A DNA stretch of 50,781 nt from Gammaproteobacteria bacterium. GTDB lineage: Bacteria; Pseudomonadota; Gammaproteobacteria; Burkholderiales; Nitrosomonadaceae. The notes below the pieces were generated by a model, which saw only the letters and a program-made list of their open reading frames with translations, did not search any database and was not told the DNA's origin. Below, in pieces: positions 46,918-50,781 of this stretch. How positions within the stretch are numbered: position 1 is the first letter of the stretch; each line of letters starts with the position of its first letter. The translations under genes and the position numbers were made by a program. The DNA lies in assembly GCA_030431985.1 (NCBI GenBank), contig JAUIIB010000017.1:1-50781 (forward strand), given 5' to 3'.

Positions 46918-48252
46918 CTATTTGGCATCGAGGTAAATCGTGATACACGCGCCTTTGGGTGAGTTTTTATCAATCGATAAATCGCCGCCGTAAACTTGTA
47001 TAATGTCGCGCACAATGGCAAGTCCAATGCCATGCCCCGGAATAGATTGATCAGCTCTCACACCACGTTCCAATATCCGAGTGATTTCATTTTGAGGAAC
47101 GCCTGGGCCATCATCCTTTACCTGTATAACAATATGTTTCAGATGCCGCTCAGCAGACAAAACGATTTGTTGGCGGCACCATTTGAATGCATTGTCGACA
47201 AGATTACCCAACAGCTCCATTAAATCACCTTCATCAATACGCAGGCTGATCGAGTGATCAATGCCAATCGTAATTTCGGGATTTTTATCGTGATAAGCCT
47301 TACTGACAGTTTTTACAATTCGATCAGCAATTGGATATACCAAGACCGGACGCATGCCTGGAGAACTACCAGCCGTTGCAGCACGACGCAGCTGATATTG
47401 AATAATATTATCCATACGTTCAATCTGCTCACGCACAGTGTCATCATCTGAATCATGCGGCAAGGTAACAGCACCATGAAGTATAGCTAGCGGTGTTTTT
47501 AAGCTATGCGCTAAATCGGCAAGTGCATTACGATAACGTTTTTGTTGTTTCCGTTCGTGATTAATAAGTGAATTGATACTGTCGGTTAATAGTTTTAACT
47601 CACTCGGATAATGACCAATAACATTTTCCTGTGTACCAGACTCAATTGCAGACAATTCATTCGATACACGACGCATGGGTTGCAAACCCCAACGTAACAC
47701 CAGCATTTGCGTAATTAACAGTAGCAAGGCCATAACACCCAGCCACCCCCAAAGATCTTCACGATAACGATCAATCTGTGCATCAAATAACGTTGTATCA
47801 GTGATGACATTAAAAGTCAGAGGATAACTGCCCGACTTGGTTGTCCATGCAACACCATAGCGATATATGAAATACGATGCATCATCAATCATGATTTGAC
47901 CGAAATGCTTAACACCTTTATCTAACAGTTGAAACTTTGGAAGCCGCTTATTTAATGCCGATGAGGAGCGCCAAGCTATTCGTTTTTTATGATCGGCAAT
48001 GAATGCATATGTATTAGAGTCAGGCCTACTGAGTTCCGTATCGAGCAGATTGGTCGGCATGATCAGCCTGCCATTTGGATCAACCTCGGCATCTCCCATT
48101 AACAAGAGCAACCTGGCCAGCATTTTATCTTGCACCCCTATTCTGGCACTGTCATAAAACGCCCGATCTAAAGCCAGTGCAATACCCACAGTAAAAATCA
48201 GCAGAACACCCGTCGCACTCAGTAAGATACGCGTATTGAGCGACATCATCAC
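46918..48252 (-). CDS. Sensor histidine kinase, PhoQ/QseC-like
   Basis: An inner-membrane sensor of 444 residues. Two membrane helices (about 10-30 and 168-188) enclose a periplasmic domain of about 135 residues. A HAMP segment (about 188-240) leads to the dimerisation helix with phosphorylated H249 (ADLAHSLKTPLA) and the ATPase domain with N, G1 and G2 boxes (GNLVDNAFKW, DDGPGVP, GHGIGLAIV). The layout and the PhoQ-like wording suggest sensing of metal cations or envelope stress, but the ligand is not known. ATGATGATG at the start overlaps the regulator stop (four-base overlap). Confidence 0.92.
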   Translation of the reverse strand: MMMSLNTRILLSATGVLLIFTVGIALALDRAFYDSARIGVQDKMLARLLLLMGDAEVDPNGRLIMPTNLLDTELSRPDSNTYAFIADHKKRIAWRSSSALNKRLPKFQLLDKGVKHFGQIMIDDASYFIYRYGVAWTTKSGSYPLTFNVITDTTLFDAQIDRYREDLWGWLGVMALLLLITQMLVLRWGLQPMRRVSNELSAIESGTQENVIGHYPSELKLLTDSINSLINHERKQQKRYRNALADLAHSLKTPLAILHGAVTLPHDSDDDTVREQIERMDNIIQYQLRRAATAGSSPGMRPVLVYPIADRIVKTVSKAYHDKNPEITIGIDHSISLRIDEGDLMELLGNLVDNAFKWCRQQIVLSAERHLKHIVIQVKDDGPGVPQNEITRILERGVRADQSIPGHGIGLAIVRDIIQVYGGDLSIDKNSPKGACITIYLDAK

Positions 48253-48932
48253 GGTTTATCGCATGCAATGGTAAAACGGTATCCGCGGCCTCGCAGTGTT
48301 TCAATGGGGTTTAAACTTCCGGTGGGGTCCAATTTTCGCCGTAAACGACCGACCATTACTTCAAGCACATTACTGTCACGATCTTCATCATGCGGATAAA
48401 GATAATCCGTTAAAACCTGTTTGGATAATACTTCACCCCGGTGCCTGATCAGGTGCTCGAGCAGGCGATACTCAAACGATGTCAAATCTACTTTGTTTTC
48501 ATCGATTGTAACCAGTTGTGCTGAAACATCGATTACGATAGGACCGCATTTTAGCAAAGTACTGGGTATACCTGTTGCACGACGTAGCAAGGCCTTAAGC
48601 CTTGCCAGCAATTCTTCCATCTGAAACGGTTTTGTCAGATAATCGTCCGCACCAATTTCAAGCCCTAACACTTTGTCTTGCCAACTATCGCGTGCAGTTA
48701 AGATTAAAACTGGTAGAACACTACCCTGCGCCCGCAATGTCTTAATTACTTCCAGTCCTGATATACCGGGCAAACCCAAATCGATGATTGCAGCATCCAG
48801 CGGATATTCATTCGCAATATACAAACCTTCAGTGCCGTCACTGCACATGTCGACCATATAACCTGCAGACTCGAGTTTCTGACAAATCTGTATTCGTAAT
48901 TTTGTTTCGTCTTCAATAACTAAAATACGCAT
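48249..48932 (-). CDS. OmpR/PhoP-family response regulator
   Basis: A 227-residue DNA-binding regulator. The receiver domain has E7 and D8, the phosphorylation site D51 (AAIIDLGLPG) and K101 (YLTKPF). The C-terminal winged helix shows LTSFEYRLLEHLIRHRGEVLSKQVL and the family ending VMVGRLRRKLDPTG...TLRGRGYRF. It lies two bases after the PepSY gene and overlaps the kinase gene by four bases, so the three form one operon. Confidence 0.95.
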   Translation of the reverse strand: MRILVIEDETKLRIQICQKLESAGYMVDMCSDGTEGLYIANEYPLDAAIIDLGLPGISGLEVIKTLRAQGSVLPVLILTARDSWQDKVLGLEIGADDYLTKPFQMEELLARLKALLRRATGIPSTLLKCGPIVIDVSAQLVTIDENKVDLTSFEYRLLEHLIRHRGEVLSKQVLTDYLYPHDEDRDSNVLEVMVGRLRRKLDPTGSLNPIETLRGRGYRFTIACDKP

Positions 48933-48934
48933 GG

Positions 48935-49225
48935 CTATTGCCCAGATTTGATTGTCCCGTCTGTCGCACTCACCTGCACAATATGAATAGAGCCTTGATC
49001 GCTGAGTATTTTGATACGATAAACATCACCGCTGCGCTTAACATCCAAGAGACGCCCCTTAATTTGTCGCTGTGCTATAGCTATCGCATTTTGCTGCGAA
49101 ATCTCTGTTTGATTGTTACTTGTTCTTACTAGATTAGTTACCAGCTGATAGCTCCCGGAAAAAGCTGGAGTGGGAAAAAAAGTGATTAACAGTGCAATCA
49201 AAAAGATTTTTTGCAGTGCATTCAT
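48935..49225 (-). CDS. PepSY-domain exported protein
   Basis: A 96-residue protein with a signal peptide (about 1-23, ending PAFS) and one PepSY domain (about 42-96): the helix SQQNAIAIAQRQIKGRLLDVKR followed by paired beta strands with VYRIKILSDQGS and IVQVSATDGTIKSG. PepSY proteins are small periplasmic domains that often accompany two-component systems or metal handling. Here it is the first gene of the PepSY-regulator-kinase operon and may modulate the kinase's periplasmic domain; that role is an inference. Confidence 0.88.
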   Translation of the reverse strand: MNALQKIFLIALLITFFPTPAFSGSYQLVTNLVRTSNNQTEISQQNAIAIAQRQIKGRLLDVKRSGDVYRIKILSDQGSIHIVQVSATDGTIKSGQ

Positions 49226-49335: not shown

Positions 49336-49740
49336 TCAATAGCGTAACATAAAGCTTGTATTTCCGGTATGAACACCTAATGACATGTGATTGGGATAAC
49401 CATATCCCGCAACGGGTGGATAATTGATATAGCTTGGTCCATATCCGTATACAGGTCGGGGACTATAATACGGCTGACTGTAGTACCGGCGTGGTGGATA
49501 ATAGGCCCGATTATAGCCGCCATAATACGGATTGTGGCGGTTATAATAATGCCGTTTATAGTGATGGCGATGATGGTGGCGATGTGAATGTCTGTGACCA
49601 TGGCCGTAATGATGTTTGTGATGTCCGTGACCAAACCGATGATGCCCCCTGCCCGCCTCAACCGCAACTGGCATTGCCAAGACCACTCCAAGCAATATCA
49701 TTAGCAGTATATTCACCGGCGATAATATTCTAGTTTTCAT
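49336..49740 (-). CDS. Exported histidine- and tyrosine-rich protein
   Basis: A 134-residue protein with a signal peptide (about 1-29, ending VEA). Residues 33-69 contain 18 histidines, set in repeats such as GHGHHKHHYGHGH; the rest (70-118) is rich in Y, P and R with repeats of the type PYYSPRPVYGYG. In all there are 20 His and 20 Tyr. No enzyme domain is present. The most likely use is binding of metal ions (copper or nickel) in the periplasm or at the envelope, which would suit the nearby amoC gene of a copper enzyme; this is an inference. A GGGGG-containing ribosome-binding region precedes the ATG. The region has its own terminator. Confidence 0.8.
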   Translation of the reverse strand: MKTRILSPVNILLMILLGVVLAMPVAVEAGRGHHRFGHGHHKHHYGHGHRHSHRHHHRHHYKRHYYNRHNPYYGGYNRAYYPPRRYYSQPYYSPRPVYGYGPSYINYPPVAGYGYPNHMSLGVHTGNTSFMLRY

Positions 49741-49915: not shown

Positions 49916-50458
49916 TCAATGCTGAAGCTCGCGACGTTTTAAAAACTTGTCAGTAGCCAGCACGATTAGCAAAAACGCCAAGATATAGGGTGTCATTGTA
50001 AAAAACATATCCTTATAGTTTGTCATTTGTATATGCAGTGGGTATTCATAATGCAGTGAAGGAACACCGACGCCTGTAACAAATAGCGTGTAGTCACCCT
50101 TATCGAGACTGAACGCACCTTTGATAATCCCATCTGAATGATCGGTAGAATATATAGATGCTATAGTATCGCCCAATGAATCACCGTTCCCACGAACAAT
50201 TTTGACGTCGATCGGCATTTTGCGCAAAGCGCTGTCGACCAGATCCAAAACCCAGAAAGTTTCGCCTTCTTGTGGAATTTCAGTACAGTACTCAGCCTTT
50301 GGATCGTGTTGTGGCTGATAAGTGCTTAAATGCACCATACTACCAGCCATCGTGCGCACACAGACATCTGATTCCAGAGAAACATTGCCGTGCGCGAACA
50401 CACAACCACTGTACAACAATACAAATACCGTACTAAAAGTCCATATTTTTTTAATCAT
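49916..50458 (-). CDS. amoC-linked membrane-anchored periplasmic protein
   Basis: A 180-residue protein of unknown function. A signal peptide (1-22, ending CVFA) is followed directly by HGNVSLE, so the mature protein would start with histidine, as in copper-binding AmoB/PmoB and His-brace proteins. The periplasmic part (23-150) has two cysteines (C33, C58) and further H43, H51, H107, H136 and H142. A single membrane helix (about 153-169) leads to the positive tail KFLKRRELQH, giving a periplasmic domain with a C-terminal anchor. GGAG lies seven bases before the ATG at 50458; the open frame extends upstream but lacks support. It lies 101 bases after amoC. The layout recalls AmoD/PmoD, but I cannot claim homology. 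Confidence 0.75.
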   Translation of the reverse strand: MIKKIWTFSTVFVLLYSGCVFAHGNVSLESDVCVRTMAGSMVHLSTYQPQHDPKAEYCTEIPQEGETFWVLDLVDSALRKMPIDVKIVRGNGDSLGDTIASIYSTDHSDGIIKGAFSLDKGDYTLFVTGVGVPSLHYEYPLHIQMTNYKDMFFTMTPYILAFLLIVLATDKFLKRRELQH

Positions 50459-50515
50459 ATAAACTCCATTCAGTTGCTGGTCAATCCTCCCTAAACAGCC
50501 ACAATCGATTTTAAT

Positions 50516-50546
50516 TCCCATGGTTTACATCCAGCAAACCATGGGA
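50516..50546. repeat. Strong 11-bp inverted repeat between amoC and the next gene
   Basis: Arms TCCCATGGTTT and AAACCATGGGA around a nine-base loop form a perfect hairpin 14 bases after the amoC stop (minus strand). It is followed by ATTAAAA, not a T-run, so it is less likely an intrinsic terminator than a 3'-end-protecting or processing hairpin. Confidence 0.8.
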
Positions 50547-50559
50547 GCAAAAAGACAAT

Positions 50560-50781
<222 letters not shown>

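Follow-up and report, generated by a model that had tools for sequence, protein, structure and literature searches.

A predicted AmoE of the PmoD/AmoD family, with a conserved putative N-terminal histidine, encoded behind a solitary amoC in a member of the Nitrosomonadaceae

The DNA analyzed here (the window: 50,781 nucleotides, contig JAUIIB010000017.1 of assembly GCA_030431985.1) belongs to an assembly of 2.73 Mb in 62 contigs, among which it is contig C40. It carries near one end, directly behind a truncated solitary amoC, a gene whose product, as judged from its sequence and predicted structure, is an AmoE of the PmoD/AmoD family. We estimate at about 0.6 the probability that this AmoE is a cupredoxin that faces the periplasm, anchored in the inner membrane, and that it likely uses C33, M41 and H43 to bind copper at the interface of a homodimer and carries this copper to ammonia monooxygenase (AMO). 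As of 2018 active AMO had never been purified, and PmoD, AmoD and AmoE are candidates for the missing component (PMC6189053). The features of the gene and its product are as follows.

49916..50458, minus strand: amoE-type gene, PmoD/AmoD family (180 amino acids and stop)
50393..50458, minus strand: predicted signal peptide, residues 1-22, cleavage before H23 (from the alignment)
50390..50392, minus strand: H23, predicted mature N-terminal histidine
50330..50362, minus strand: C33-x7-M41-x-H43, which fits the PmoD CuA ligand motif Cx7MxH
50285..50287, minus strand: C58, second invariant cysteine (C65 of Methylocystis PmoD, where it is not a CuA ligand)
49922..50017, minus strand: predicted C-terminal membrane helix, residues 148-179 (AlphaFold2 model)

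Identity of the protein

The PmoD/AmoD/AmoE family is defined by a signal peptide, two conserved cysteines and a C-terminal transmembrane helix (PMC6189053). Here both cysteines are found in 119/119 aligned relatives, the helix is predicted at residues 148-179 and the signal peptide follows from the alignment, while the motif of the AmoE or CuA class, Cx7MxHxnC, is present as C33, M41, H43 and C58. A search of PDB sequences returned a sole match at E≤10, PmoD of Methylocystis sp. ATCC 49242 (PDB 6cpd, E 6.9e-8), with which the protein shares the two cysteines, the Cx7MxH motif, the C-terminal membrane helix and, according to a comparison of the predicted structure, the cupredoxin fold. The stronger profile match to the same entry is circular, because profile A2 includes a stretch of 6cpd. 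Those close relatives that have names are mainly from Nitrosomonas, and a scan of the genome's contigs gave one locus. Helicobacter CrdA (9ll4) has no sequence match to AmoE at E≤10, and its structural Z lies within the common-fold range.

The Pfam scan gave no family at E≤1, and thus neither the CopC nor the monooxygenase subunit B model, and no NCBIfam model scored above its own cut-off; a weak NCBIfam hit on a molybdate-binding protein (E 0.027; 13.6 bits, where the cut-off is 264) is due to chance. Although these scans were empty, a new protein family is rejected, since the protein is an AmoE. A preliminary description had treated it as an unknown, a view that does not hold: the AmoE/PmoD copper proteins are a known family of which this gene is a further member, and its motif has a published copper-ligand role, the Cys, Met and His of Cx7MxH being the CuA ligands of Methylocystis PmoD, where no N-terminal histidine is needed. 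The same description was accurate in placing a signal peptide ending in FA directly before H23 and a single membrane helix at the C-terminus, and its two cysteines are C33 and C58, but there is a third, C19, within the predicted signal peptide. It named no strand; the gene is on the minus strand.

Linkage to a solitary amoC

50560..50781, minus strand: amoC 3' end, 73 amino acids, truncated by the contig end, no amoA after it (PF04896)

The operon-encoded AmoE lies after amoB and before amoD. The gene in the window instead directly follows amoC (PF04896, E 2.2e-30), whose stop lies 101 nt upstream, and is itself followed by a His/Tyr-rich open reading frame (ORF); we therefore class it as a lone-type rather than an operon AmoE. 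For a survey of 85 genomes of the genus, lone-type matches were taken as those scoring at least 290 bits (a cut of our own) against profile A1, which comprises 34 rows (the window and 33 of 80 database relatives), and amoC presence was counted on loci. There are 48 such matches in 45 genomes. Thirty-eight lie behind an amoC that is whole or cut by a contig end or N-run (the partial amoC of L038, ending at an N-run, being counted as gap-cut); three lie behind an internal amoC fragment (31, 36 and 49 residues in L048, L037 and L026), an apparent decay of the lone amoC; four (L021, L035, L036, L062) lack an amoC over at least 1.3 kb; and three start too near a contig end to judge (L018, L047, L053). 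The linkage is thus 38/45 informative matches. AmoA was found within 8 kb upstream, on the same strand and contig, in 0/48, and among the 71 other listed matches it lies 1453-1598 nt upstream in 46, with amoC 2468-2643 nt upstream in 39.

These counts support the suggestion that the amoC is a stand-alone copy followed by the amoE-type gene and not by amoA. That homologues would track such copies is true of most informative loci but not of all. All four genera sampled in the family have members (120/125 genomes), and a sample of the class gave members in 13/369 genomes, with AmoC found in 11/13; a PF04896 match was not found in G168 and G291, though PmoD-like genes are present (L122 and L125, respectively). 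Because of the three fragments, the four absences and these two genomes of 13, the AmoE family is not strictly tied to an adjacent amoC. In the available part of Fisher et al., 98.5% of 860 PmoDs occur in species with a homologue of particulate methane monooxygenase or AMO.

Relation to operon AmoE and AmoD

In a tree of 108 rows (support by the Shimodaira-Hasegawa-like approximate likelihood ratio test, SH-aLRT, only; 10/30 AmoD rows included), 49 lone-type rows together with L067, L071 and L082 form a 52-row clade with an SH-aLRT of 99, and the 49 alone form one side of a branch with an SH-aLRT of 30. L067 and L071 also stand behind a lone amoC (that of L071 is broken by stops), whereas L082 does not. 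The rows nearest to the window are L033, L042 and L041.

The operon AmoE (orf4 of the beta-proteobacterial amoCABED) belongs to the same family and shares Cx7MxHxnC (Met in 36/40), H23, a similar size and the C-terminal segment, but falls in another clade and lies behind amoCAB, whereas the lone type lies 85-146 nt behind amoC in 37/39 spacers, with no AmoD-like match at its loci. AmoD (orf5) likewise belongs to the family and retains H23, C33, H43 and C58 (30/30); it differs in having Arg, Thr, Ser or Phe at position 41 and Met (29) or Ile (1) at position 42, so that its motif is as a rule Cx8MHxnC. An amoE behind a singleton amoC has been published for Nitrosomonas sp. PY1 (W03_22790, our P0017, 70% identical), where, in the part of that report available, it is counted only and not characterized.

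Two side observations concern the same tree and loci. Seven loci (L066, L068, L069, L070, L072, L074, L075) have an amoE for which no amoC or amoA was found upstream, and group as a subclade within the other AmoEs (SH-aLRT 95). In L060 and L061, from two genomes (G036, on its small contig C2, and G019), the amoC-amoE copies are almost the same; the ORFs beside them resemble by eye antitoxin, toxin and recombinase genes, and this is perhaps a mobile copy.

Is the lone AmoC divergent?

The preliminary description spoke of an alternative AmoC. In four relatives the AmoC beside amoE is, however, 97.7-100% identical to the operon AmoC (G017 99.6%, G026 97.7%, G036 100%, G081 99.6%), and the value for an additional amoE-adjacent copy in G036, on its contig C2, is 92.4%. 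AmoA and an operon amoC were not found in the window's own assembly. The 73-residue AmoC end in the window differs by one residue from the other amoC end of its genome (contig C62) and, over 67 residues, is 94-98.5% identical to ordinary AmoCs as against 82% to a divergent lone AmoC of G005. The term alternative is thus not borne out in the relatives.

These identities bear directly on the idea that AmoE is the dedicated chaperone of a divergent, stress-type AmoC (AmoC3). The position of amoE directly behind a lone amoC would fit such a role, as would the stress-recovery function proposed for the singleton AmoC of N. europaea in the available part of PMC4940428; the N-terminal amoC parts found where contigs C28 and C45 of the window's assembly end, whose identity to the compared AmoCs is 74-87% (27 and 55 residues), also leave room for some divergence there. 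Set against this are the near-identity of lone and operon AmoC in the four relatives, the ordinary character of the AmoC end in the window, the retention of amoE without amoC in four loci and with fragments in three, and genome G005, whose two lone amoC genes, 74.6% and 90.0% identical to its operon AmoC at the protein level, have no amoE behind them. A dedicated AmoC3 partner is accordingly not supported in the relatives, and we consider it very improbable overall, though some room for it is left in the window's own genome.

Conservation of the motif and of the N-terminal histidine

The alignment of Nitrosomonas relatives comprises 49 lone-type, 40 other AmoE (40 loci out of 71 listed matches scoring 200-290 bits) and 30 AmoD rows; loci duplicated under other identifiers (L002, L006, L017, L029, L034, L007, L008, L009) and 10 partial or distant rows were omitted. 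H23, C33, H43 and C58 are identical in 119/119 (for H23, 49/49 lone-type, 40/40 other AmoE and 30/30 AmoD), which answers in the affirmative the earlier question of whether H23, C33 and C58 are conserved. H107 is found in 49/49 lone-type, 20/40 other AmoE and 0/30 AmoD rows, and D109 in 41/49 lone-type rows.

The N-terminus in the window reads ...LLYSGCVFA up to the predicted cleavage point and then HGNVSLESDVCVRTMAGSMVHLSTYQPQ. Cleavage before H23 is inferred from the alignment, where the residue at -1 is Ala or Gly in 119/119 and that at -3 is Ala, Val, Leu, Thr or Ile, a pattern that does not favor another site. One such site would be C19, which in the window follows YSG and, if the protein were a lipoprotein cleaved there, would leave H23 away from the N-terminus. 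A Tyr at -3 misfits the Prosite lipobox pattern, and position 19 is Cys in 1/49 lone-type rows, namely the window itself; lipoprotein processing is therefore unsupported and, in our estimation, scarcely credible.

Among database proteins with the complete motif (including the second Cys) and an intact N-terminus, a filter needed because a signal-peptide Cys is otherwise misread as the first Cys, the position ten residues ahead of the first Cys is His in 77/77 and 47/47 proteins retrieved by queries from ammonia-oxidizing bacteria, and in 0/115 PmoDs of the Methylocystis/Methylosinus type, all of which have Gly there (3/80, 0/47 and 4/119 proteins without motif or N-terminus were omitted). The full-length Methylocystis PmoD (P0129), which reads ...SRAEGGAGPEAMSMGNMCMVM, has no such His, in contrast to AmoE; its corresponding stretch is ...SRAEGGAGPEAMSMGNMC. 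Among distant gammaproteobacterial members, HG or HR occurs at about the place of H23 in 15 loci (L117-L127, L130, L132, L134, L137) and is missing in L131, L133, L135 and L138. Since the proteins of ammonia oxidizers and these 15 loci have it and the Methylocystis type does not, the predicted N-terminal His is, at the level of sequence, widespread in the family but missing from the solved subfamily; that all PmoDs share it is rejected. The PmoD constructs of Fisher et al. begin with a vector-derived Ser-Met, but the notion that they had removed a conserved N-terminal His is wrong, the full-length protein being without it. The parts of PMC6189053 and PMC7584546 that were searched, which did not extend to supplements or bioRxiv, make no mention of a conserved N-terminal His in AmoE or AmoD, which is no proof of absence.

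The invariance of H23, together with its absence from the type used for structure determination, raises the question of a second copper site (type 2, His-brace- or CopC-like, with the free amine and imidazole of H23 and a further His, for example H43 or H107, as ligands) that would be the working site in ammonia oxidizers instead of CuA. H107 in all lone-type AmoEs is in keeping with this, as is Cu-B of PmoB, which in the available text of PMC7584546 uses the amine of an N-terminal His. However, Methylocystis PmoD has no such His and still forms CuA, so CuA formation does not require H23; H107, given its counts in other AmoEs and AmoD, cannot be a family-wide partner; and H23 lies ten residues ahead of C33 in a weakly predicted segment. 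We regard such a site as doubtful. A CopC-like arrangement with H107 and D109 partnering H23 is, given the H107 counts and the incomplete conservation of D109, no more than a possibility. Also doubtful, to our mind, is a variant in which His1 (mature numbering; amine and imidazole) joins Cys11, Met19 and His21, or a second His, in a mixed CuA/His-brace center or a transferable type 2 copper site passed to AmoB or AmoC; it would apply to ammonia oxidizers and to most family members examined outside the Methylocystis type. Studies of PmoD could not have seen a His1 site, because the solved subfamily is without this His and the published constructs start with vector residues. Should ammonia-oxidizer proteins have an extra N-terminal copper ligand, the Methylocystis structure would model them incompletely, and an AmoE that keeps its native N-terminus would be a concrete protein to make.

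Proposed function

The signal peptide is predicted to direct AmoE to the periplasm and the single C-terminal helix to anchor it in the inner membrane, where C33, M41 and H43 would bind copper at a homodimer interface, by analogy with experiments on Methylocystis PmoD, and the protein would carry or load this copper to AMO. The lone amoC-amoE unit probably provides extra, ordinary AmoC and the copper helper that goes with it; in many genomes a two-component system is adjacent. The seven loci in which amoE is kept with amoC reduced or gone suggest that amoE also serves the operon-encoded enzyme, or AMO in general. The discoverers of AmoE/PmoD left open electron supply, copper loading and structural support. 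Copper handling for AMO appears the likeliest of these on the basis of the proximity of amoC, the kept copper ligands and the phenotype of a Methylosinus pmoD deletion, with electron supply as its main rival. Of the earlier proposal of a copper chaperone or accessory subunit, a copper-binding type of AMO accessory with a conserved predicted mature N-terminal His stands, but the link to an alternative AmoC is not supported.

Several points weigh against copper carriage as formulated here. Copper binding and the dimer are carried over from PmoD and the N-terminus from the alignment, while the AlphaFold2 model is weak over the N-terminal 30 residues (block means 52, 49, 66); the loss of amoC beside a retained amoE opposes a role restricted to the lone AmoC; and a CuA-type motif suits electron transfer no less than copper loading. 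Other proteins use CuA sites for electron transfer, and a predicted dimeric CuA-type center in AmoE could pass electrons, not copper, to AMO. The one PmoD class for which CuA formation has been shown has the same motif, Cx7MxHxnC, and reductant supply is among the roles proposed by Fisher et al. No redox partner or effect on activity was found in the literature consulted, however, and CuA formation is not expected of the tandem paralogue AmoD, which is without Met41 (30/30) but is retained beside the operon amoE; the family's extended operons include copC, copD and pCuAC, which suits copper handling. An electron carrier is thus possible, though we think it distinctly less probable than the copper carrier. 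A literature search on cryo-electron microscopy of bacterial AMO gave no such paper, judged by title.

Genomic surroundings

50516..50546, minus strand: hairpin TCCCATGGTTT-GCTGGATGT-AAACCATGGGA between amoC and amoE, with a 10-bp consensus stem and compensatory changes

The hairpin was aligned in 36 distinct spacers of 39 (L026, a fragment, and L027, overlong, were left out as such and one duplicate was merged). Standard pairs are found in 29-36 of the 36 at each position and all ten pairs vary on both sides; the RNAalifold energy is -16.3, whereas 100 column shuffles, which ignore relatedness, average -0.02 (sd 0.16, minimum -1.6). Inverted repeats of at least 8 bp, unrelated in sequence, also follow 12/15 other amoC copies (operon and second lone), a survey with no shuffle control in which one G005 copy gave no amoC end by pattern. 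There is no U-run after the hairpin of the window, and an Rfam scan of 50400-50781 gave no match at E≤1; that the hairpin ends or protects the amoC mRNA is a guess.

Upstream of the lone amoC, on the same strand, Pfam identifies a PAS histidine kinase and a LuxR-type response regulator. Among 22 loci with a near-whole lone amoC beside a lone-type amoE and at least 500 bases before amoC (L067 and L071 included), 14 have the LuxR-type regulator. In 13 it lies about 225-405 nt ahead of the amoC match, while in L065 two ORFs intervene and the distance is 2.4 kb; of the eight without it, L020 and L039 show fewer than 600 bases. It was found in 0/8 second lone-amoC loci (L145, L146, L148, L150, L152, L153, L156, L157; 2-3 kb before amoC) and before neither of the two lone amoC genes in G005. 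In the window's genome the PAS kinase and LuxR regulator (L012 5057-7667) lie at the right-hand end of contig C28, with the first codons of an amoC after them, so that one amoC is probably split between C28 and C40. Placed behind such a kinase and regulator, the lone amoC-amoE unit is a candidate control point for AMO supply.

Downstream of amoE the His/Tyr-rich small ORF (49336-49740, minus strand) has a signal-like start and no Pfam match; different His/Gly-rich ORFs were seen by eye near L063 and L049, both lone-type loci. Farther downstream (46918-49225, minus strand) lie a weakly PepSY-like small protein, which was not found in the other loci examined, a Trans_reg_C response regulator and a histidine kinase.

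Distant PmoD-like proteins also occur. One family (YPKGFRG-x-CT-x-E...), with Cys and without the Met/His motif, is represented at L022, L026, L036, L048, L064, L141 (contig C32 of the window's genome) and L142, in several genomes near the lone amoC-amoE locus. The window's genome encodes two further distant PmoD-like proteins (L014 6253-7386 and L015 9071-9856), of which one has a lipoprotein-like start and lies, by eye, behind a CopC-like ORF, and the other begins AHEGHH and has a His-rich insert.
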